Of a stretch of DNA of 58,011 nt, positions 1-52,342 are shown one piece after another. Where the stretch lies: positions 1 to 58,011 of IMG/VR virus record IMGVR_UViG_3300033141_002284; one strand, written 5' to 3'. The stretch's first letter is position 1. Every line of letters begins with the position of its first letter. The translations under genes and the position numbers were made by a program. The notes beneath the pieces are model-generated. The model made no database searches. It was not told the DNA's origin and was given only the letters and a program-made list of their open reading frames with translations. Origin of the DNA: a virus.

Positions 1-700
1 TTGCCTCTGGTGCAAACAAATCCCTTTTAGCAAACTCAATAGCAAAGCGAATCTTTTCTTTATATTTATTGGTTGCATCTAAGTATTCTTTTGCATATTT
101 CGGATTGCGTTTAACTTCCTTCTCAGTCGCTTTTTCTTTTTTCTCTGCTGCCCATTCGGCGGCTTTCGCCTGTCTTAATTCAGTATCAACAGCTCTTACG
201 GTTTCCTCACCCTTGATAATCTTTTCTACTCTTTCAGGTGCTTGTTCTTTTACCCGCTTGGCTCTTCTTACGCTTTTTCCTGATATTCCAAATTCTTTAG
301 CTACAGCATCAGTCGCTTGACGAGGATGAGGCCCTTTGGCCTCTACCTCACCAGTACGTCTATATTGAGATACTTTTTTCGCCTTGCTCTTTTTATATTG
401 TTCTTCAAACTCTGATAACATCTCAGTAGCCAACATAGCCCGCTGACTTGTATCAAGGTGTCGTCGCCGGATGTTCATAGAAATAACATAGCTTAAAGGA
501 TCATCGCCTTTATACTCTTCCATCAAAGACAATATCCCTAACTGCTCACAAGCTTTATAGCGATTCACACCATCAAGTATCTCGCCATTTACAGTAACAA
601 TCGGTTCAAGTTGTCCATGATCTTTTATATCCTGAACAAGCAGGTCAAACTCTTCCCCTTCGAGTATAGGGAAATACTTAGCTAATTTATGTATTTTCAT
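1..700 (-). CDS. ParB-like nuclease/DNA-binding protein (3' end continues across the genome junction)
   Basis: The reading frame starts at ATG 700 behind an AGGGGGCAG ribosome site and runs off base 1. It is completed by 57961-57894, giving 255 residues. The first 90 residues fit the ParB/Spo0J N-terminal fold, with ILDGVNRY at about 42-48 where ParB proteins usually have GxxR. A helix-turn-helix-like stretch lies at about 125-150 and a charged helical tail follows. It heads the replication operon and is preceded by promoter 822-850 and the pseudoknot leader 721-811. A plasmid-style partition role is not shown because no ParA gene is present, so it may act in replication or transcription control. 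Confidence 0.7.
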   Translation of the reverse strand, partial: MKIHKLAKYFPILEGEEFDLLVQDIKDHGQLEPIVTVNGEILDGVNRYKACEQLGILSLMEEYKGDDPLSYVISMNIRRRHLDTSQRAMLATEMLSEFEEQYKKSKAKKVSQYRRTGEVEAKGPHPRQATDAVAKEFGISGKSVRRAKRVKEQAPERVEKIIKGEETVRAVDTELRQAKAAEWAAEKKEKATEKEVKRNPKYAKEYLDATNKYKEKIRFAIEFAKRDLFAPEA

Positions 701-720
701 ATCTGCCCCCTAAATAAAAC

Positions 721-811
721 GAGCCTCTTTGAAATTGGCTGGACATCTGCTAAAGATACCAATCTCGCCGAGGCTCTAAATATTCTATACTTTAATTTAT
801 AGCAAATGTCC
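721..811 (-). promoter_or_regulatory. H-type pseudoknot 5' leader, copy 1
   Basis: On the minus strand four segments occur in the order A-B-A'-B'. A is at 811-800 (GGACATTTGCTA) and pairs over 12 bases, with one G-T, with A' at 752-741. B is at 776-770 (GAGCCTC) and pairs with B' at 727-721. The interleaved pairing makes a pseudoknot. The leader starts about 11 bases after the -10 box and ends about 10 bases before the ribosome site of the ParB-like gene. A second copy with the same order and a conserved loop lies at 6242-6324. Riboswitch or protein-bound leader are both possible; the ligand is unknown. Confidence 0.6.
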
Positions 812-821
812 ATCTTCGGCA

Positions 822-850
822 ATGTTACCACATATCCGATTCTTTGTAAA
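822..850 (-). promoter_or_regulatory. Promoter for the replication operon
   Basis: Read on the minus strand, -35 TTTACA (850-845) and -10 TAACAT (827-822) are separated by 17 bases. The start site should fall near 815, just before the pseudoknot leader. The spacer resembles that of the promoter at 6336-6364. Confidence 0.65.
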
Positions 851-5843: not shown

Positions 5844-6221
5844 TTATTCTATTACGAAATAAGGCATACTACCCGGTAGAAGACTCCACATTGGTTTTGG
5901 TAAACAGTATTTTACTTTATCTATTGCTATACCAAGCACAACTAATTGTTCCATTATTTGATGAAGACCAGTCCATTGATCTCCGTTTTTATTATCGCAT
6001 GCATTTAAAAAGCTCATTCCTCCTCCAGTTTCTTTTTGAAAAGCATCTGGTAATTGTTTGAGCATTTTATAAATATCGTCTTTGTATTTTTTTATTCTTT
6101 CTGGATGAAAGCCAAATATATTCACTATCCCTTCGGCTTTTATATAACTTTGAGTTGATTCTTCATTTTCACAAAGACAATTATTAAAAACAATCTCTAC
6201 ATTCCTAGCTGTCAATTCCAT
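5844..6221 (-). CDS. Conserved hypothetical protein (GMPYVV type)
   Basis: The 125-residue product has the pattern LTARNVEIVFNNCL, GFHPERI, GGGMSFLNAC, WTGLHQIMEQLVVLGIA and a C-terminal MWSLLPGSMPYFVI. I recognise this as a frequent conserved phage and plasmid protein without known function. ATG 6221 follows TAGGAGGG. It is the first gene after the promoter at 6336-6364 and the second pseudoknot leader, so its dose may be controlled by that leader. Confidence 0.6.
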   Translation of the reverse strand: MELTARNVEIVFNNCLCENEESTQSYIKAEGIVNIFGFHPERIKKYKDDIYKMLKQLPDAFQKETGGGMSFLNACDNKNGDQWTGLHQIMEQLVVLGIAIDKVKYCLPKPMWSLLPGSMPYFVIE

Positions 6222-6241
6222 ATCTATCCCTCCTATAAAAA

Positions 6242-6324
6242 AAGCTCTCGCAAATTCGGCTAAACGTCAGGCTAAAGACACCAAATCTTTGAGAGCTTCT
6301 TATTATCATTATTAAGCCTGACAT
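6242..6324 (-). promoter_or_regulatory. H-type pseudoknot 5' leader, copy 2
   Basis: Minus-strand order is A (6324-6315, ATGTCAGGCT), B (6298-6291, AAGCTCTC), A' (6273-6264, AGCCTGACGT) and B' (6249-6242, GAGAGCTT). A pairs with A' over ten bases and B with B' over eight. The stems differ in sequence from copy 1 but keep pairing, and the linker before A' (AGATTTGGTGTCTTTAGC here) matches copy 1 closely. Covarying stems and a conserved loop point to an RNA structure. Confidence 0.6.
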
Positions 6325-6335
6325 TCATAATTTGC

Positions 6336-6364
6336 ATTGTACCATATATCCGATTTATTGTAAA
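6336..6364 (-). promoter_or_regulatory. Promoter for the 6221-1333 accessory operon
   Basis: On the minus strand, -35 TTTACA (6364-6359) and -10 TACAAT (6341-6336) have a 17-base spacer. The predicted start near 6329 leads straight into the pseudoknot. The 17 bases TTGTAAAGTAGTTTTTA around the -35 are identical at 14508-14524. Confidence 0.7.
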
Positions 6365-6371
6365 GTAGTTT

Positions 6372-7103
6372 TTACATCGGATATTCTTGTATAAGTTCCT
6401 TCCCCCATATTTCTTTTAAACTGTCCTTGAGAAATACAGGAATATTTACAAACTGGCAATAATCAACAATCTCAGTTATACACTCTCGCTTAGGGATAAT
6501 CTTGCCTTTACGATTACCAGTTTCTGCGCCAATAATTACCCAGTCTGGACTAATATAGAATTCTATGCGTTCCAGCAATGGTTCAAAAGAAAGAAAGATT
6601 GTATAATCCTCATCGTCCCACGTTGTATCGAAGATCAAATCAGCAAATGCGTCCATCATAGATTGATCAGTGATTGTCGTTCCCAGCCAACAGTTTAATG
6701 GAAAAACATAACATGAATATATTGATGGTGTTTTGGTTAGAAACTGGAATATATGTTCAGGATGTTTTTTAATCTTATCCAATACCCTATGCATCCATTC
6801 TCTATCCCACCAGCAAATATCGCTCATACTATCAACAAATATTCGACTTGGTTTTTTAGGAAAGGCTCTATCAAAATTACTATAAAGAAATGTAGGCTCG
6901 AAGTTTTTCAATTTCTTATATAATTCCAACCATTCTTTAGGTCTTTCTTCTCCTGAATATAAATAATTGATTTCCTTATTTGCAATTTGTCGAGCAATTC
7001 TTTTTGCTATTTTTCGAGCATAACAGTAAGAACAGTTATTCCGACATCCCCATACTGGATTCCAAGTATAATCACACCAGTCGATTTTAGTTTTATTTAT
7101 CAT
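6372..7103 (-). CDS. DUF5131/Gp37-Gp68 family radical SAM-like protein
   Basis: The 243-residue protein opens with KIDWCDYTWNPVWGC and a CxxxCxxC cluster (Cys20, Cys24, Cys27; CRNNCSYCY) that should bind a 4Fe-4S cluster. Later DSMSD, FLTKTP, GTTI and the EPLLERI-WVIIGAETG pair are typical of this phage family. The reaction is unknown. Family members often neighbour the TcmP partner, but none is seen here. It overlaps the operator-like sequence at 6359-6374 with its stop codon. Confidence 0.8.
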   Translation of the reverse strand: MINKTKIDWCDYTWNPVWGCRNNCSYCYARKIAKRIARQIANKEINYLYSGEERPKEWLELYKKLKNFEPTFLYSNFDRAFPKKPSRIFVDSMSDICWWDREWMHRVLDKIKKHPEHIFQFLTKTPSIYSCYVFPLNCWLGTTITDQSMMDAFADLIFDTTWDDEDYTIFLSFEPLLERIEFYISPDWVIIGAETGNRKGKIIPKRECITEIVDYCQFVNIPVFLKDSLKEIWGKELIQEYPM

Positions 7104-7118
7104 TATTCCCTCGCATTA

Positions 7119-7140
7119 TTCGTAAACTGGCTTTACAATT
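7119..7140. promoter_or_regulatory. Palindromic operator-like site
   Basis: Arms CGTAAA and TTTACA flank CTGGC, the same 5-base spacing as the perfect copies. It lies between a terminator and the start of the DUF5131 gene, where a repressor could act. Confidence 0.45.
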
Positions 7141-14567: not shown

Positions 14568-14590
14568 AATTGTAAACAGATTTTACAATT
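14568..14590. promoter_or_regulatory. Palindromic operator-like site, perfect copy
   Basis: Nine-base arms AATTGTAAA and TTTACAATT flank CAGAT. It overlaps the last base of the upstream stop codon and precedes the terminator and promoter of erf. Confidence 0.5.
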
Positions 14591-20553: not shown

Positions 20554-20577
20554 AATTGTAAAGCCGGTTTACGATTT
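20554..20577. promoter_or_regulatory. Palindromic operator-like site
   Basis: ATTGTAAA and TTTACGAT flank GCCGG, the same centre as the perfect copy at 878. It touches the stop of the 20577-21200 gene and lies upstream of a TATAAT box. Confidence 0.5.
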
Positions 20578-43703: not shown

Positions 43704-44846
43704 TTATTCCTTCGCTTTATATCCTGGATTCTCAAATTCAAAAGAACCGTATACTAAACCATAATCATCAGATTGCTTTAATTCTCTTCCTTTATGTGGC
43801 TGTACAGAATCCCATTGTGTACTCACATATAATTTAGTTGACGTTTTTTTTATACATGGTAGATAACCATATTCAATATCATCATTTAATTCTGGCAGAC
43901 GACGTCCTGTTGTATAATTCTCAATATAGCCATATCCAGTATGCATCGGCCATAATCTATTTAACATAGAAGGACAATAAATTGAATTTTGATTTATTAT
44001 TAGATCATCAACCAAATCTTCCTTTATCCATTTTCGCCAATCTAATTTCGTATTACCTATTGGCGGCCCCAATATCTCACCAGTAGGAATACCAATCGCT
44101 AAAGATTTATTTGCTTTATTAAGCTCTGGTCTTATTTCTTTGATAAATTTGGTTAAATATGAGCCAAGCAGACGGCGCCAACTAACCAAATCAAAATCGT
44201 CAATATAGATATCTTTACCGTAAAGCTCATAATATTCTTTTCTTACTGGCTCATTAAATCCAAACTGATCTGCAAATTCGGCCGGTTTTGATTGCGATCT
44301 TAAACAGATAAACAATCCATCAAAATCCGTATTTTCTATTGAGCTTAAAAAATATTCTCTGAAATATTTGCGGACTTCCGGATAAGATAAACTTAAAACA
44401 CCCCACTGTCTTTTCGTTCCGCTTCTATCTACCCTGGCATATTCAGGATGTTCATAAGAGAATCTACTCATACGAGTATTATATTGTGCTGTATCAGCAG
44501 AATGATAACTGACTTTCCGTTCTTTTAACGGCGGCAATGGCCAACCTTCGTCAAACAGGTGGACATACAAATAGATTTTCATTCCCACCCTATGAGCTAT
44601 TGCCGGTATTTCATGGTCTTCCCAATCTATAGGAATGGCTTTTTTCTTTTTACGGATTATATTATAGATTGAATTAAAATATTTGTTTTCCGCTTTTCTT
44701 GTTCCCCGCCAAAATATTTTATCAGCATTCAGTCTTTCTTTCCAAATTGCCATTCTCTGCTCAATAGCATCTAGGGTAATTAATTGTCCATCTCCATTTC
44801 CTCCATAAGTGCGATGATCCCCCCAAGATACATTTACTATATTCAT
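43704..44846 (-). CDS. TIM-barrel glycosidase-like protein
   Basis: The 380-residue protein resembles family-10-like glycosyl hydrolase folds: RMAIWKERLNADKIFWRGTR, a helix-strand MKIYLYVHLFDEGWPLPP, the LSLSYPEVRKYFREYFLSSI step and FDGLFICLRSQ. Catalytic acids cannot be assigned by eye. It follows two nucleotidyltransferase genes and the sugar transporter, so a role in processing a surface or imported glycan is plausible. Confidence 0.5.
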   Translation of the reverse strand: MNIVNVSWGDHRTYGGNGDGQLITLDAIEQRMAIWKERLNADKIFWRGTRKAENKYFNSIYNIIRKKKKAIPIDWEDHEIPAIAHRVGMKIYLYVHLFDEGWPLPPLKERKVSYHSADTAQYNTRMSRFSYEHPEYARVDRSGTKRQWGVLSLSYPEVRKYFREYFLSSIENTDFDGLFICLRSQSKPAEFADQFGFNEPVRKEYYELYGKDIYIDDFDLVSWRRLLGSYLTKFIKEIRPELNKANKSLAIGIPTGEILGPPIGNTKLDWRKWIKEDLVDDLIINQNSIYCPSMLNRLWPMHTGYGYIENYTTGRRLPELNDDIEYGYLPCIKKTSTKLYVSTQWDSVQPHKGRELKQSDDYGLVYGSFEFENPGYKAKE

Positions 44847-45556
44847 ATTTCAATTATCTCTTTGTAAGCTCTTTCAATATCGGAATATCTCTCTGGGAAA
44901 AACCCTAAGTAATCGATTACCATATTCATTATTGCCATTTCGAGCGGATAATCAATGTCAATCTTAATTGCTGTTTTTCCCGGCGGCATAATATCACTAC
45001 AATCAACCAATTTGATTAATGGATCACCTTCCTTAAGCACATAGCAACACCAATATTGTTCTTCCATTTTTGCTGGATCGGAACATTTTTTCATAGCCGC
45101 TATTTGTGATTCCATATATATTTTTTTTATACCGCCAGTATTATGCCCGCTTATTGGTGATCCCCAAGGACTATAACTACCATAAGTCCAATAGTCCGGT
45201 TCTCTCCTCATTGCATCAATAAGTCTTTGTGCTATTTCCAAATCAAAAAAAGGGCTATCTCCCGAAACTGTTAAAGCATGGGTAATGCCATATTCATTCC
45301 AAGTTTCCAAATGTCTACTTGCCAAATTGTGAACATCACCCCGGTAACATTCGACTTGATTATCATCACAAATATTTTGAATGACATCATCTGAAGTTAA
45401 ATAAGAGGTTGACACAACTATCCCATCAAGATTTTTAAGATTTTTGCACTTTACAATTATTTGTTCCAACATCGGTTTTCCGCCCAACATGGAAATAACC
45501 TTATTCGGAAATCTTTCTGAAGAACAACGTGCTGTTATTAATGCAAATAATTTCAT
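44843..45556 (-). CDS. SpsF-like nucleotidyltransferase, copy 1
   Basis: The 237-residue protein starts LFALITARCSSERFPNKVIS, the nucleotide-binding loop of CMP-sugar synthetases, then has GKPMLEQIIVK, VVSTSYLTSDDVIQN and VSGDSPFFDLEIAQRLID with the metal-binding Asp pair. It should activate a sugar as CMP- or similar, for glycan synthesis. It is coupled to a diverged copy upstream. Confidence 0.7.
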   Translation of the reverse strand: MKLFALITARCSSERFPNKVISMLGGKPMLEQIIVKCKNLKNLDGIVVSTSYLTSDDVIQNICDDNQVECYRGDVHNLASRHLETWNEYGITHALTVSGDSPFFDLEIAQRLIDAMRREPDYWTYGSYSPWGSPISGHNTGGIKKIYMESQIAAMKKCSDPAKMEEQYWCCYVLKEGDPLIKLVDCSDIMPPGKTAIKIDIDYPLEMAIMNMVIDYLGFFPERYSDIERAYKEIIEI

Positions 45557-46230
45557 AATTTTTCCATCTCCATAAATGCTTTTTCTATTTCCTCATATTT
45601 TTCTGGATAATGGCCGATATATTCAATTACTTTATTTAATATTGCAACATGCAAAGGATAAGCGATATTCAAATCTATTAAGTATTTATTTCGTAAATTA
45701 GGTTCCTTCCAATCATGCAGAATAAAACCATCTTTTTTGGATTGTTTGGATTGCCACCATAGTTCTTGATCGGTTCCAGTCTTTTTATATTCTTCTATTA
45801 TTTCCCTAGAAGGTATAGAATGCATAATGCCCTCCGAATGAACATAGGCATATCTATAATATGCATACCCTGGTTTTTTTCTTATTTCTCGAATCACTTC
45901 GTTCATTATTTTTATCTCAAATAATGGCCAATTAGCAGGCATCGGAATAAAATAATCAAGATCATATTTCACAACAGCTTCGTAATATCTTAATCCTCGA
46001 TCATCCGGCGGGCCCGTAATATATTGAATTCCATATCGCCCCGCAAGATTCATCAACCATTTGTCTTCTGGATAATAAGTAGTTGATAAAATTATTTCAT
46101 CAAGGCCCTTTAGTTTTACCAATCTTTCAATCACTCTTTCAATAATTGGTACTCCTCCCAGTTTGGCTTTAATCTTATCCGGCCATCGACCATAATTAGA
46201 CCTTGCTAATACTACAGCTCCTATTCTCAT
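45553..46230 (-). CDS. SpsF-like nucleotidyltransferase, diverged copy 2
   Basis: The 225-residue protein begins IGAVVLARSNYGRWPDKIKA and keeps GGVPIIERVIERL and EIILSTTYYPEDKWL. The usual GDSPxxD metal site reads MPANWPLFEIKI, so the catalytic aspartates are lost. It may be a regulatory or inactive partner of copy 1. Both end in similar HVAILNKVIEYIGHYPEKYE-type tails. Confidence 0.65.
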   Translation of the reverse strand: MRIGAVVLARSNYGRWPDKIKAKLGGVPIIERVIERLVKLKGLDEIILSTTYYPEDKWLMNLAGRYGIQYITGPPDDRGLRYYEAVVKYDLDYFIPMPANWPLFEIKIMNEVIREIRKKPGYAYYRYAYVHSEGIMHSIPSREIIEEYKKTGTDQELWWQSKQSKKDGFILHDWKEPNLRNKYLIDLNIAYPLHVAILNKVIEYIGHYPEKYEEIEKAFMEMEKL

Positions 46231-46472
46231 TTCTTTCTCCCCTCTGCAAAATCTTTTAATATTTTCCGCACTTGCTTTTTATAGTTTAAATATTCTTTTA
46301 AAACACCTCCACCAGTTATTATCAGTTTTATTAAATAAAATGGTATTGCCATAATTAAAACTGCCAAAAAACCTATTGCTATCGCAAACATCCCCACAAA
46401 TAAAAACGGCGATAATATTATAAAGGCTATTATCTCTTCTGTTTTAGATAATTTTTTATCTTCATTATCCAT
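46227..46472 (-). CDS. Small membrane protein, copy 1 of a pair
   Basis: The 81-residue product has two membrane helices (about 14-30 and 33-52) and a basic tail EYLNYKKQVRKILKDFAEG. The tail matches EYINFRKQRHKILKDFEKN of the next gene, so the two are tandem paralogues. Confidence 0.55.
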   Translation of the reverse strand: MDNEDKKLSKTEEIIAFIILSPFLFVGMFAIAIGFLAVLIMAIPFYLIKLIITGGGVLKEYLNYKKQVRKILKDFAEGRKK

Positions 46473-46728
46473 TGTTTATTCCCTTGTTTTTTTCAAAATC
46501 TTTTAATATTTTGTGTCTCTGTTTTCTAAAATTTATATATTCTATTATAAAATCAACTCCGTCTTTTGTTAATATTATAATCGCTTTTGGTATCGTTATT
46601 ATTAAACACACAAAAATCATTGTTATCGCAATAATTAGAATAAATGGCAGTGCTATCGGCATCGGCACTAACAATATCCAAGCGACTAATGGGTAAGCTA
46701 ATGATATTTTATTTTTTTTATCTGTCAT
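46465..46728 (-). CDS. Small membrane protein, copy 2 of a pair
   Basis: ATG 46728 follows AAAGGGG. The 87-residue product has hydrophobic segments (LAYPLVAWILLVPMPIALPF, IIAITMIFVCLIITIPK) and the tail shared with 46227-46472. It lies directly after the permease gene. A regulatory subunit role is speculative. Confidence 0.5.
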   Translation of the reverse strand: MTDKKNKISLAYPLVAWILLVPMPIALPFILIIAITMIFVCLIITIPKAIIILTKDGVDFIIEYINFRKQRHKILKDFEKNKGINNG

Positions 46729-46730
46729 AA

Positions 46731-47558
46731 TTACCCCTTTGTTACTCCCGAAAAAATATTCTTTAAAAAATGCTTTTGGAACATTGCAAATATTACTAAT
46801 GGCGGTAAAAAAGCGAATGTAGCACAAGCATTTTTCAATCCATAATGCTCAAGCCCGGATTTAAAAAGTATCTCTGCACTGGTTACTATTTTCAATATGC
46901 CGACCGGTAAAGTATATATATTTTCTGATTGTGCTATTATTAGCTGCCACATTAAGGCATTCCATCCGCCTATAAATCCGATTAAAAACATAGCCGCTGC
47001 CGGAGCCATCGATAAAGGTATTACTATTTTTATCAATTTTGTTATTTCTCCGGCTCCATCGATCTCTGCAATATCTAATAATTCATTCGGAAATGATTTT
47101 AAAAATTGCCGATAAAAAAATATATAAACTGGTGAAGCTAATCCTGGTATTACCATTCCTGCTAAAGAATCATATAGTCCCATTTTTTTAATCATTAGAA
47201 ATAACGGTATCATTTTACTCTGCATTGGCACCATTAAGGAAGCTAGAAATAACATAAAAATAGTTTCTTTGTAAGGTATTTGTTTTTTTGCGAAAGCATA
47301 TCCACTTAATATACTAAATGATGTTGCTCCGAAAGCCCCGGCAGCCGATACAATAAAACTATTAAAAGTCCATCTTAAAACCGGCCATTTAAACAAAGTT
47401 ATATAGTTATTGATTGTCGGCTTTCTTGGTAGTAATGTCGGCGGCATAGCAACGGCGCCCAATGCTGATTTAAAAGAGCCGCTTATCATCCATATGACTG
47501 GAAATAAAAGAATTAGTGCTAATAATATTATTATTGTTTGATTAATTGTTTTTAACAT
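46731..47558 (-). CDS. ABC sugar transporter permease, MalG/CUT1 type
   Basis: The 275-residue protein has about six membrane helices and the EAA loop LDIAEIDGAGEITKLIKIVIPLS near residue 175-197, which docks on the ATPase. NNYITLFKWPVLRWTFNS near 50-67 is typical of the second CUT1 permease. It should form, with 47863-48789, the membrane channel for the sugar delivered by 48722-50053. Confidence 0.88.
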   Translation of the reverse strand: MLKTINQTIIILLALILLFPVIWMISGSFKSALGAVAMPPTLLPRKPTINNYITLFKWPVLRWTFNSFIVSAAGAFGATSFSILSGYAFAKKQIPYKETIFMLFLASLMVPMQSKMIPLFLMIKKMGLYDSLAGMVIPGLASPVYIFFYRQFLKSFPNELLDIAEIDGAGEITKLIKIVIPLSMAPAAAMFLIGFIGGWNALMWQLIIAQSENIYTLPVGILKIVTSAEILFKSGLEHYGLKNACATFAFLPPLVIFAMFQKHFLKNIFSGVTKG

Positions 47559-47745
47559 CTATTTTTCTTCTACTGTGAAACTGTTTGGATGCTAAAATCA
47601 TCATATATGCCATAGGATAAAAACCGACTATTTTATCAAATTTATCTTTTATTCTTTTCTTATCCCCATCTGAACTAAAATAATAATATGACAATAACGT
47701 AAACACACATCCCGCCCCTAATATAATACCTGGTATTATTCCCAT
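47542..47745 (-). CDS. Small membrane-associated protein (67 aa)
   Basis: ATG 47745 follows GGGAGG. A short hydrophobic start (IPGIILGAGCVFTLLSYYYF) is followed by a basic region. It is sandwiched between the two permease genes. Unknown function. Confidence 0.45.
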   Translation of the reverse strand: MGIIPGIILGAGCVFTLLSYYYFSSDGDKKRIKDKFDKIVGFYPMAYMMILASKQFHSRRKIDVKNN

Positions 47746-47876
47746 AATGTGCCTCCCGTAAAAATTGTTTCTTCTTTTTCTTGCTCAAGAAAGTTTTCAT
47801 ATTCCCTTTGATTCATTTTCTTTAAATATTTTATACCGCAATTAGGACAATATAAATCATATTTATTTCCTATCAA
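47736..47876 (-). CDS. Possible small zinc-knuckle protein (46 aa)
   Basis: A TTG start at 47876 lies within the permease gene end. The product has CPNCGIKYLKKM and then an acidic-basic helix. No strong ribosome site is visible, so it is uncertain. Confidence 0.3.
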   Translation of the reverse strand: MIGNKYDLYCPNCGIKYLKKMNQREYENFLEQEKEETIFTGGTLWE

Positions 47877-48789
47877 TCAATATTTTTTTCTGTATTACGG
47901 TTAATGCGATAATTATTGTAAATACCACCAGGCTTTCTGCCGCTCCCAGTCCATATTTGCCGCTTTGAAAAGCCCGTACAAAAATCTGATATACCAATGT
48001 AGTTGTCGCATAATATGGCCCGCCGCCTGTCAATACATATGGTATCTCCCAGATCATCATAACTCCGATTGTTTGCATGATTAAAATAAATGCTATTATC
48101 GGCAGCATTAACGGCATTGTAATATAGAGAGCTTTTTGTCTATCGCTACAACCATCTAATTCAGCGGCATCATATAGTTGTGTATCGATAGTCGATAAAG
48201 CCGACATATATAAAATAACATTTAATCCCATCCCTGAAGTTATCATAACAATGCAAATTGAAAAAAAAGCCGCTGGCATAGTTCCTGTCCAGATCACTGG
48301 TTCAATCCCGATTAATCCTATTATATAATTTAGCAAGCCATGCTGTGGATTAAAAATCCAGCTCCAAGTAATTGAAATAATCATCCCCGCCGATATTAGC
48401 GGAACATAATAGGCAAATCGTATAAATGATTGCATTTTTCTTGACATATCATGCGCTATCAATGAAACAAAAAACGAAACAAACACCAGTAAGGGAACAC
48501 TGAAAGCTACAATGCTTATAGTGGTTTTCATAGACTTCCAAAATATGTCATCGTTTATCAAATAGATGAAATTATCAAATCCTATGAATCGACTCACTCT
48601 GGCATTAGCTTTAAAAAAAGCAAGAGCAACACCTTGGATTGTAGGGATTGCTGTGAAGAGAATAAATATGAAGAGGGCTGGCGAAATCAACGCCAACCCT
48701 ACCATATAGTTTTTTATTTTTTTATTCTGAAAGAAGCTTATTTGCACGACGGTCAAATTCCGCTGCCGCTTCGGCAGGTGTAATCTCAT
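47863..48789 (-). CDS. ABC sugar transporter permease, MalF/CUT1 type
   Basis: The protein (308 residues from ATG 48789; a GTG at 48747 would shorten it to 294) has about six membrane helices. Near residue 200 the EAA loop TQLYDAAELDGCSDRQKALY is visible. LVYQIFVRAFQSGKYGLGAA near the end is typical of the first CUT1 permease. It overlaps the solute-binding gene stop. Neither start has a strong ribosome site. Confidence 0.88.
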   Translation of the reverse strand: MRLHLPKRQRNLTVVQISFFQNKKIKNYMVGLALISPALFIFILFTAIPTIQGVALAFFKANARVSRFIGFDNFIYLINDDIFWKSMKTTISIVAFSVPLLVFVSFFVSLIAHDMSRKMQSFIRFAYYVPLISAGMIISITWSWIFNPQHGLLNYIIGLIGIEPVIWTGTMPAAFFSICIVMITSGMGLNVILYMSALSTIDTQLYDAAELDGCSDRQKALYITMPLMLPIIAFILIMQTIGVMMIWEIPYVLTGGGPYYATTTLVYQIFVRAFQSGKYGLGAAESLVVFTIIIALTVIQKKILIDRK

Positions 48790-50053
48790 TTATTAACATG
48801 CCCTGGAGTACAGCCAACCAAATTTGGCGCAGCTCATTATATACCGGAAACCCTATGCCCATGTCGTAAATACCCCGATCTTTTATAATCTGTGACATCT
48901 GTTTCATCGCCATGCCAATAGTTCCTGAACTTGTCGGCATTCCGGCAGTTTTTAAAGGACTGAATTTTGAATAGACTTTTTGTAAAATTGTCTGTACTTC
49001 GGCCCCGGTTATATATTGTAAAAACTTTAATGCCTTTTCTAACTGAACAGGATCGCCATTATCAATAACCATAGCCAGATCTGGCCCGAAACATGGTGCT
49101 ACTCCATCAACTCCTTCAACGTGCGGATATTCCATTAATACACATTCGAATTCCGCCTCTACAACTCCGTCTTTTACGGCATATTTCCCTACCTCTATAC
49201 CAGCAGGAACGTAACCCCGCATTCCTAATTTGCCGGAATTGAACAACATAGCCATATCGCCATCATACAGTCCAGAGGCTCCATAAGGTACATAACCATT
49301 TTCATGCAGATAATGAATATATTCCATTCCTTTTATGCCTTCGGGAGTATTAAGAATCGCCTTGCCGTTTTCATAAAGATTAGCGCCAAATCCACCCAGC
49401 ATATTCAATACCCAATAATCACCGCCGCATTCTTTTGCAATAATATAGTAACCATAGTACTCATCGCCCAAGGCAGTAATAGCCTTAACTGCTCGATCAA
49501 ATTCCGCTACTGTCCATGATCTATCGGGATCATCGTCGACCGGTAATACATCCGCAACCCCCGCCTGTTCAAATAAATTTCTATTAGCCATTAAACAAAC
49601 AGCCCATCCAGGCATCGGCAAAGCATACAATTTACCATCTCGCTCAAATTGTGATAATGCCGACTTTTTAAATTGATCAATAAACTCTTTCGGCAATGCC
49701 TCATAAAGATTAACCCCAAAATCAGCATTGGCAAATTTATTGACTCGCCCACCATAACTCCAGATAACATCGGAAGGTTCACCGCTCGCTAAATCCATAT
49801 CAAGACTTTTCGTAGTATTGTCTATAGCATCTGAATATTTCCGTAATTCTATCTTAATTCCTGTTTCCTCTTCAAATTTAGGAATAATATTGTCTTTCCA
49901 TAGATACCCTGTAAAATCACGATTTGGATATTGCTCTTCGGAAACATCCGATACAATAGCGAAAATCAGCGGTTTTTCGACTTCCGGTTGACCTGTGGCA
50001 AATACCGAAAAAACCAACATAAATACCATTAAAACTAAAACAATTCTTTTCAT
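48722..50053 (-). CDS. Sugar ABC transporter solute-binding protein (CUT1)
   Basis: The 443-residue protein has a signal peptide MKRIVLVLMVFMLVFSVFAT followed by GQPEVEKP, then the family 1 solute-binding fold: FEEETGIKIELRKY, LASGEPSDVIWSYG, GKLYALPMPGW, ANRNLFEQAG, MAMLFNSGKLGMRG and a C-terminal helix set. It should bind a carbohydrate in the periplasm and pass it to the two permeases. The leader AAGAGAAGAGGTAAAAGA is shared with the gene upstream. Confidence 0.9.
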   Translation of the reverse strand: MKRIVLVLMVFMLVFSVFATGQPEVEKPLIFAIVSDVSEEQYPNRDFTGYLWKDNIIPKFEEETGIKIELRKYSDAIDNTTKSLDMDLASGEPSDVIWSYGGRVNKFANADFGVNLYEALPKEFIDQFKKSALSQFERDGKLYALPMPGWAVCLMANRNLFEQAGVADVLPVDDDPDRSWTVAEFDRAVKAITALGDEYYGYYIIAKECGGDYWVLNMLGGFGANLYENGKAILNTPEGIKGMEYIHYLHENGYVPYGASGLYDGDMAMLFNSGKLGMRGYVPAGIEVGKYAVKDGVVEAEFECVLMEYPHVEGVDGVAPCFGPDLAMVIDNGDPVQLEKALKFLQYITGAEVQTILQKVYSKFSPLKTAGMPTSSGTIGMAMKQMSQIIKDRGIYDMGIGFPVYNELRQIWLAVLQGMLINEITPAEAAAEFDRRANKLLSE

Positions 50054-50078: not shown

Positions 50079-50099
50079 ATTGTAAACTCACTTTACAAA
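50079..50099. promoter_or_regulatory. Palindromic operator-like site before the transporter genes
   Basis: TTGTAAA and TTTACAA flank CTCAC, the standard 5-base spacing. It is 30 bases upstream of the solute-binding gene and just after a hairpin, so transport genes may be regulated separately from ro60. Confidence 0.5.
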
Positions 50100-50733: not shown

Positions 50734-52311
50734 TTATATTTCTTCTTTTATAATCATATTTATTAACTTTGGCGTTTCCGCTGTAAATCCCATAATATCG
50801 TACATCTTCGGATTAGCAGGATCAGACAAACTCAAGGTTTCTCCATAAGGAACTAAATAGTTAATAATTATTTTACAATTAGGATATTTTTTCTGATATT
50901 TTTTTGCTACTTCCGAAACATGCTCTTTTCCATACCATGATTGTCCATCAGTCCACATTATAATAGCATCATATTCTTGTTCAGTATCCATGGCATATTT
51001 TATCGGCAACGCACAATCAGTTGCATTATGAGTTGCATCTTTATAAACCAGTGATTGTGGATTTAATATATTCCTGAAAGCGGTTTTTTTAGTTAAATAA
51101 ATCGGATATAAACTTCCATCAAAACCAATTAAGTTATAATATGGTTCTCTGGCTATTGAAGCTCTTGCCATTACAGCTCCGATAATTCCAGGAGTAAGCC
51201 AAAGCGGTTGTAAATTTTGTGACCACATAGAACCAGAAGCATCTAGGCCATGCAAAATTCTTTTATTAATCGGTTCTATAATATCAAAACAATCCTCAAT
51301 CGCAGTTTCTAAAATATCACAAATAGCCTCTTCAGCTTTCCATGTAAGTTTAGTTTTTCCTAGTTGCCCGCCATTAGAATAAATATAATAAGCCGATGCT
51401 AAAACAACAGGATGGATATAAGCCCTTTGCAAATTTTCTCTCTTTAATTTATTTCGCAATATTTCTATATTCGCTATTTTATTAAATAATCCTTTTTCAG
51501 TTAATTGGCCTAAATTACGAATAGCAGCACCTACTGGCATTTTAATAAACAATGCTTCCCATATTGCCTTGGTTCTTTTAATATTTGCCGGTATCATTTC
51601 ATGAGTTAAATTGAGACCACTAATAGCTTTTATTACATCGACTTCATTAAGATCGGTTTTCATTTGTTCGTATGCTCTTATTCTCAATAAAGAATCATTG
51701 GCTTCTTTTTTTTCAGTAAAATATCCATAGAGATTGTCTTTTAAATCATTTTTTTTACCGACTGGTTTTATAATTCTTAATATGTCTCTTGCCGCAAAAC
51801 CATAACGATTCTGATATTTTAAAAATTGATATTCTAATTCTTGTACAGATTTATTATCTAGCCAACCCTTAACCGCTTTATGTATAACAGTGCCCTTTCC
51901 CCGCACTCCTTTAAGATAGGAAAAAAACTCATATAAATGAGAAGCAGTTCTGATAACTGCATTGAATATTTTCCTAAATGCTGGTTTCCCTCTTGTTGAT
52001 AGCCAAACCAGGGCATAAATCGGAGTATGAACAGAAATACCTTTTTTTGAAGCATAAAGGATAAGATCACCAACCTTGTCAGGATCGCTTTTGGCACATT
52101 CCAGAAATATTTTAACATTCTCTTCTGTCATTTCCTGTTTGCCTTGATAAAAAGCATTGCCCATGCTGCCGGTTAATAGCCATCTTTTTAATGCTTGAAA
52201 TGGATCCGTTTTAAAAGCAAATCCACCAGCCAAAAGTTTGGCCATTACCTTTTCTCTTCCAAGAATCAATTTACTCTGCGGTGCAGACACATTCATAAAT
52301 TTATAATCCAC
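50734..52311 (-). CDS. rsr: Ro60-like TROVE/vWA RNA-binding protein (Rsr homologue)
   Basis: GTG 52311 is chosen because GGAGGT stands just upstream. The 525-residue protein has an N-terminal start with PQSKLILGREKVMAKLLAGG, then the TROVE HEAT-like repeats (KRWLLTGSMGNAFYQGKQEM, FLECAKSDPDKVGDLILYAS, VIRTASHLYEFFSYLKGVRG). The C-terminal vWA domain carries the MIDAS motif DASGS at 357-361, a TDCALPI loop and a late MWTDGQ. Ro60 is known to bind misfolded RNAs and Y RNAs and, in bacteria, to pair with exoribonuclease PNPase. Three Y-type RNAs lie just upstream, which strongly supports this call. Confidence 0.9.
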   Translation of the reverse strand: MDYKFMNVSAPQSKLILGREKVMAKLLAGGFAFKTDPFQALKRWLLTGSMGNAFYQGKQEMTEENVKIFLECAKSDPDKVGDLILYASKKGISVHTPIYALVWLSTRGKPAFRKIFNAVIRTASHLYEFFSYLKGVRGKGTVIHKAVKGWLDNKSVQELEYQFLKYQNRYGFAARDILRIIKPVGKKNDLKDNLYGYFTEKKEANDSLLRIRAYEQMKTDLNEVDVIKAISGLNLTHEMIPANIKRTKAIWEALFIKMPVGAAIRNLGQLTEKGLFNKIANIEILRNKLKRENLQRAYIHPVVLASAYYIYSNGGQLGKTKLTWKAEEAICDILETAIEDCFDIIEPINKRILHGLDASGSMWSQNLQPLWLTPGIIGAVMARASIAREPYYNLIGFDGSLYPIYLTKKTAFRNILNPQSLVYKDATHNATDCALPIKYAMDTEQEYDAIIMWTDGQSWYGKEHVSEVAKKYQKKYPNCKIIINYLVPYGETLSLSDPANPKMYDIMGFTAETPKLINMIIKEEI

Positions 52312-52342
52312 TTTTACCTCCAATCTAATCAAATATCCTTCT

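Follow-up and report, generated by a model that had tools for sequence, protein, structure and literature searches.

The window, i.e., the whole stretch of 58,011 nucleotides that was analyzed, is a 58-kb phage contig that is circular as judged from a 50-bp end repeat, and its gene content includes a terminase, a portal, a tape measure protein, an Erf-like protein and replisome genes. Two structured leaders, here called copy 1 and copy 2, are located in intergenic DNA of its minus strand (Table 1). The initial annotation, made from the sequence of the window, placed copy 2 at 6242-6364, and these coordinates are correct for an element on the minus strand. The gene directly 3' of copy 2 is functionally uncharacterized. 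Immediately upstream of copy 2 is a DUF5131 gene (phage Gp37/Gp68-like, radical-SAM-like; 6372-7103, minus strand). Copy 1 leads a replication operon, as had been proposed, with the gene order ParB-like, Phage_rep_org_N and DnaC-like ATPase; because the contig is circular, the operon continues over the contig join.

Table 1. Coordinates of the two leaders, their parts and the neighboring features in the window.
Feature	Position	Strand	Evidence or remark
Copy 1 promoter, TTTACA-17-TAACAT, spacer also with ATCGGATAT	822..850	-	
Copy 1 leader	711..813	-	followed by GGGGG and the ATG of the ParB-like gene
Copy 1 P1a	812-800	-	
Copy 1 P2 outer arms	776-770/727-721	-	
Copy 1 P2 inner arms	766-759/738-731	-	
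Copy 1 P1b	752-740	-	
Copy 1 U-rich tail	720-712	-	
Gene directly 3' of copy 1, ParB-like, first in the replication operon	2..700	-	phrog_4715 ParB-like, phrog_21315
Phage replisome organiser (Phage_rep_org_N), copy 1 operon, beyond the contig join	56624..57454	-	PF09681, E=1.1e-31
Second ATCGGATAT site, inverted, 5' of the copy 2 promoter; candidate operator half-site	6376..6384	+	
Copy 2 promoter, TTTACA (6364-6359), 17-nt spacer with ATCGGATAT, TACAAT (6341-6336)	6336..6364	-	
Copy 2 leader	~6328-6235	-	between promoter and Shine-Dalgarno site
Copy 2 P1a, 5' arm of the putative pre-emptor helix	6315..6327	-	13 bp with P1b, -18.5 kcal/mol
Copy 2 P2 outer 5' arm AAGAAGCUCUC	6291..6301	-	fold
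Copy 2 P2 inner 5' arm AGAUUUGG	6281..6288	-	fold
Copy 2 loop UGGUGUCUUUAGC, common to copy 1	6271..6283	-	3' end belongs to P1b
Copy 2 P1b, 3' arm of P1 within the P2 loop	6261..6273	-	
Copy 2 P2 inner 3' arm CCGAAUUU, one nt past P1b	6252..6259	-	fold
Copy 2 P2 outer 3' arm GAGAGC and U-run (terminator-like)	6237..6249	-	
Copy 2 Shine-Dalgarno AGGAGGG and start codon (ATG)	6219..6234	-	
Gene directly 3' of copy 2, phrog_26039, 125 aa	5844..6221	-	E=1.7e-34
TGTAAA-N5-TTTACA sites	881-897, 7121-7137, 14571-14587, 20557-20573, 50081-50097		

The promoters of the two leaders have the same 17-nt spacing (850-822 in copy 1 and 6364-6336 in copy 2), as noted earlier, and their 29-bp core is near-identical between the copies, with 0 such matches expected by chance. 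The pattern ATCGGATAT has five matches in the window (at 822-850, 6336-6364, 6376-6384, 34819 and 51101) compared to 0.73 expected; three of the five are found at the two leader promoters, including two in inverted orientation around the -35 box of copy 2. We regard ATCGGATAT as a candidate operator of a phage regulator, and the two promoters are probably co-regulated via this shared operator-like DNA site. A different pattern, the palindrome TGTAAA-N5-TTTACA, is found five times in the window with at most one mismatch (0.46 expected), in several cases just upstream of genes or promoters, and these sites are candidates for a second operator set.

In both copies the order of elements from 5' to 3' is P1a, an A/U-rich linker, P2a (outer, then inner), a loop, P1b, a single G, P2b (inner, then outer), a U-rich run and the Shine-Dalgarno site. 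The stem arms are interleaved in the order P1a, P2a, P1b, P2b while the stem sequences differ, as the annotation had it; the arms of P1 are UGAAUGUCAGGCU/AGCCUGACGUUUA in copy 2 and UGGACAUUUGCUA/UAGCAGAUGUCCA in copy 1. The extent of the stems had been understated: P1 comprises 13 bp in each copy and begins at the U of an AUG, 7-8 nt past the -10 box and 0-3 nt from the predicted +1, and P2 is a long hairpin consisting of an outer and an inner part, with its U-run end at the Shine-Dalgarno site. The loops, TGGTGTCTTTAGC in copy 2 (6283-6271) and TGGTATCTTTAGC in copy 1 (761-749), have the consensus UGGURUCUUUAGC, and their reported similarity is significant in that 0.12 matches to the 13-mer with at most one mismatch are expected in the window and it is present in both leaders. 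P1 and P2 interleave because P1b is located in the P2 loop. P1 and inner P2 are mutually exclusive since a single nucleotide separates P1b from inner P2b, so the earlier term pseudoknot does not apply to this combination; P1 together with outer P2 could make a true pseudoknot, which is topologically possible.

The significance of the pairings was assessed against dinucleotide shuffles, and none of the 2000 shuffles of each window leader matches both its 5'-end pairing and its P2 hairpin energy. The observed 5'-end pairing is -19.8 and -20.5 kcal/mol in the two leaders, and the shuffle mean is about -6.7 kcal/mol. Neither P1 nor P2 pairing is due to chance in copies 1 and 2, which upholds the view that a structured leader is duplicated before two operons. 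Cross-pairing between the two leaders is absent: the 5' end of copy 1 pairs with the body of copy 2 at -6.7 kcal/mol and the reverse combination yields -12.4 kcal/mol, versus about -20 kcal/mol for each leader on its own. The stems thus give no support to the suggestion that a single signal acts on both operons via the RNA. Because both promoters carry the ATCGGATAT site, joint control is more likely exerted at the DNA, where a common DNA-binding regulator would be the simpler route.

The same layout in unrelated sequence is found in at least eight further leaders from five other viral contigs. The set considered here comprises ten leaders from six viral genomes, namely copies 1 and 2, G001_1, G001_2, G006, G007_1, G007_2, G007_3, G008 and G011, and in five of the ten the downstream gene is ParB-like. 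The ParB-like gene of G001, 62-67% identical to that of the window, is preceded by the same layout in a different sequence, and the second leader of this genome (G001_2) directly follows a primase gene. When 2.18 Mb of unrelated viral DNA was scanned for the structure alone, two strong leaders emerged, L193 (G006) and L241 (G011); the gene after the former, which was not used in the scan, is another ParB-like one (42% identity across the N-terminal part), and the latter is upstream of a replication-like gene. A ParB profile search returned 28 loci, among which those of contigs G007/G012 and G008 are likewise preceded by a leader. G007 holds three, of which the two extra ones precede an HNH/primase unit and a replication initiator. 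Weaker candidates are L269, L270, L287 and L294. Among 35 regions upstream of ParB-like genes, which include those of copy 1, G001_1 and G006, seven score 40 or more, compared to 0 of 2100 shuffles; L296, which is among the scores, is a probable coding-region artefact. Most leaders from other phages were found via structure or the ParB link, and the extent of the class and its bias towards ParB or other genes are therefore uncertain.

Several properties are constant across these leaders. The gap between the -10 box and P1a is 5-9 nt in all ten, and most of them were first picked up by a scan blind to promoters. P1 is 9-15 nt long, P2 abuts the Shine-Dalgarno site in ten of ten, and a U-rich stretch follows P2 in nine; the U-run is strong in copy 2, G001_1, G001_2 and G011, weak in copy 1, G007_1 and G008, and absent in G007_2. 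In copies 1 and 2 and in both G001 leaders, P1b and inner P2b are separated by a single nucleotide. The 5' end of a leader pairs with its own body at a mean of -20.9 kcal/mol and with the bodies of other leaders at -9.8 kcal/mol (sd 3.0), in a set where the G006-G011 leaders were partly chosen by P1 pairing and copies 1, 2 and G001_1 were not. In G007_2, G007_3 and G008 an additional helix crosses the other two, giving the order a b c a' b' c'. In the G007 leaders of this kind (L311, 1830-1925 and 3350-3442), the three helices all cross one another, so that there are three competing alternative pairings.

The controls define how far individual matches can be trusted. Matches in a reversed-sequence control were as numerous as in the forward scan, and scrambled-promoter controls indicate that loose matches scoring up to about 47 can arise by chance, so lower-scoring promoter-anchored leaders (e.g., G007_3, with a score of 42) rest on context. 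Scans of viral contigs for the loop sequence recovered the window's own phage and G001, all other matches being without the structure; scans of viral contigs with the c2 gene and marker genes brought up G001 and otherwise nothing but near-identical contigs. No relatives were revealed when genome contigs were scanned for ParB and lysis genes, and distant DNA searches with the G011 leader gave no matches. By structure descriptors, no such leader is present in Leptospira phage LE1, in phage MW202426 or in an Agathobacter phage; the ParB-like gene of LE1 is located inside an operon.

In all nine leaders analyzed, P1 is the predicted fold once P1b has emerged (nt 54-69). In eight of them P2 takes over as the predicted fold, but not before nt 86-94; G001_2 keeps P1 as its best fold. 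The energies of the P1-enforced and P1a-blocked states are within 1.6-9.4 kcal/mol of each other, as computed for nested folds. Direct refolding barriers in the nine leaders range from 16.6 to 30.7 kcal/mol and are upper bounds because they refer to nested direct paths. The predicted order of folding would suit a kinetic pre-emptor.

The interpretation that we favor, tentatively and with somewhat less than even confidence, is that these are cis-acting leader RNAs of phage replication and early operons that form a folding switch, with P1 as the pre-emptor and P2 as the attenuator. According to the folding predictions, the 5' end of the nascent transcript (P1a, at about +1) would pair with P1b immediately after synthesis of the latter, and the 3' arm of P2, which adjoins the U-rich stretch and the Shine-Dalgarno site, would be made last. 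As long as P1 is held, inner P2 would be blocked and P2 would have to fold as a slow pseudoknot, and for these reasons read-through by RNA polymerase would become more likely. If P1a is occupied or folding is late, P2 would form at once and the transcript would be terminated or poorly expressed; a trans RNA, a protein or the speed of elongation could tip the balance. To the observed pairings, with their order, position and recurrence, this model would add an effect on termination and a trigger. Copy 2 has strong features of an intrinsic terminator (GC-rich stem and U-run), which are weak in copy 1 and absent in G007_2; a simple terminator scan finds none in copies 1 and 2 because the loop is long. 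Since the U-run is missing in G007_2 and weak in several leaders, termination may not be the common step, and the true target may instead be stability or translation. Outer P2 could also form beside P1, which counts against this model.

No known riboswitch class could be assigned, in agreement with the initial annotation: Rfam 15 has no family match in the whole window at the gathering cutoff, and copies 1, 2 and G001_1 have none up to E=5. Among other relatives, the single match is an int-alpA RNA (RF02996, 37 bits) at L295 1416-1483, directly upstream of another ParB-like gene, that of phage MW202426. It resembles the leaders in its slot before a ParB-like gene and in the U-run and Shine-Dalgarno site at its end; it differs in having a nested outer stem from the 5' arm and no interleaved P1/P2, and the leaders themselves do not match RF02996. 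To our knowledge, the put RNA of HK022, a two-hairpin fold that suppresses termination, has neither a terminator-like hairpin at the ribosome site nor interleaved pairing, and would be set apart by this description. What it shares with the leaders is its place: put is an RNA element with which early phage transcripts begin, and it influences elongation (PMC9378689). A known mobile or DNA element, which the annotation had named as the finding that would speak against an RNA, was not found, and this explanation was dropped. HDV-like ribozymes have the interleaved order P1a-P2a-P3-P1b-P2b with P1 at the RNA 5' end, as here. This candidate was also rejected: the leaders have no Rfam match, and since their P1 begins where transcription is initiated from the promoter, no upstream RNA would be left to cleave.

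By analogy, the best reading is that the leaders are functionally closest to the attenuation systems of phage P4 and plasmid pIP501, matching neither in its defining features. In P4, the CI RNA keeps the replication genes silent by causing premature termination; it is made from the leader itself and is complementary to seqA, located upstream of it (PMC4825925, PMC10111431). Like the CI RNA/seqA system and its C4 and IsrK relatives, the leaders would control replication genes by leader termination, and an upstream segment is complementary to a later one; here, in contrast, a single leader of about 100 nt holds the target, the complement and a terminator-like hairpin by the Shine-Dalgarno site, and action in trans is putative. 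An RNA immunity of the P4 kind, in which the leader, once terminated or processed, builds up as a small RNA in a lysogen, pairs through its P1b loop with P1a of new transcripts, blocks P1 and keeps the replication operons terminated, is unlikely but deserves attention. The target P1a is upstream of its complement, which is in a hairpin loop before replication genes as in P4, and P1 is specific to each leader, as immunity groups would require. However, P1a and P1b are on the same RNA, so cis pairing is favored, and the leaders match nothing in the Rfam library, the C4 (RF01695) and isrK models included. In pIP501, RNAIII causes premature termination in the repR leader (PMC4981023). The leaders resemble that system in the attenuation proposed for a replication-gene leader, in competing leader pairings and, as modeled, in the trait of pIP501/pT181 attenuators that an upstream pre-emptor (P1) is exclusive with a terminator-like part (inner P2), and the G011 leader precedes a replication-like gene. 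Attenuation in pT181 and pAMbeta1 is similar to that in pIP501. Nevertheless, we consider it very improbable that an opposite-strand RNA covers P1a: there is no antisense promoter-like site in eight of the ten leaders, copy 1 among them, the sites in copy 2 (9/12 sites) and G011 are weak, the leaders measure about 100 nt compared to about 300 in pIP501, and their pre-emptor is at the 5' end of the transcript.

A compact fold could also act without switching, hiding the 5' end while the ribosome site stays free and thereby sparing early mRNAs from decay. The chances of such a protector or insulator are low but real. It would explain why each leader has P1 starting from the predicted +1 and P2 reaching as far as the Shine-Dalgarno site, and it needs neither sequence conservation nor a U-run, which is weak or absent in some leaders; with outer P2 alone counted, L3 is 11-21 nt across the ten leaders, and 11 nt is enough to cross P1. 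On the other hand, a plain 5' hairpin would suffice for protection, the exclusion of P1 by inner P2 recurs in nearly all leaders, which suggests selected competition, and four leaders have strong U-runs. A riboswitch or protein-binding attenuator, where a ligand or a phage protein shifts P1 versus P2, seems improbable. The loop UGRURUCUUUAG is common to copies 1, 2 and G001_2 despite different stems, and offers a clue to a possible factor restricted to this phage lineage; the other leaders lack the conserved sequence that an aptamer needs, there is no Rfam match, and a common small-molecule aptamer is unlikely because no loop sequence is common to the related leaders of other phages. Attenuation by a leader peptide starting from an AUG at +1 is scarcely credible and was dropped. 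Such an AUG is found at or near +1 in six of the ten leaders (copies 1 and 2, both G001 leaders, G007_1 and G011), and the reading frame in copy 1 overlaps the ParB start, but it is missing in G006, G007_3 and G008, G007_2 has only a GUG with an early stop, and the peptides, of 7-39 codons, have nothing in common.

Returning to the folding switch, replication genes of several unrelated phages begin with this layout in different letters, and the leaders therefore appear to form a phage RNA switch class that has not been described and is absent from Rfam. RNA leaders that keep their shape and almost no sequence are missed by homology searches. A leader that recurs at replication and early operons of unrelated phages, with up to three per genome (G007), would constitute a general control layer of early expression. 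We think it doubtful that this uncatalogued, widespread class gives unrelated phages a P4-like RNA immunity with P1 as a private code of 9-15 nt, the leader's own terminated product silencing the replication genes and repelling superinfection; if trans-active, the leader would explain superinfection immunity outside the P4 and P1 groups.

Some further observations concern the same genomes. In G001, the second leader is directly followed by a stretch of about 300 nt (L034, ~6615-6915) in which GAGCGAGCCA and GAGAAAACCA decamers alternate at intervals of about 20 nt; this stretch precedes a sigma-factor-like gene and has no Rfam match. The window phage encodes a Ro60/TROVE protein (50734-52332, minus strand; PF05731 and a Ro60 vWA domain, phrog_850). 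It also carries, at 43704-50053 on the minus strand, genes for an ABC-type sugar-binding protein (PF01547) and a permease along with a weak GHL10 glycosyl-hydrolase match, and these are possible auxiliary metabolic genes.
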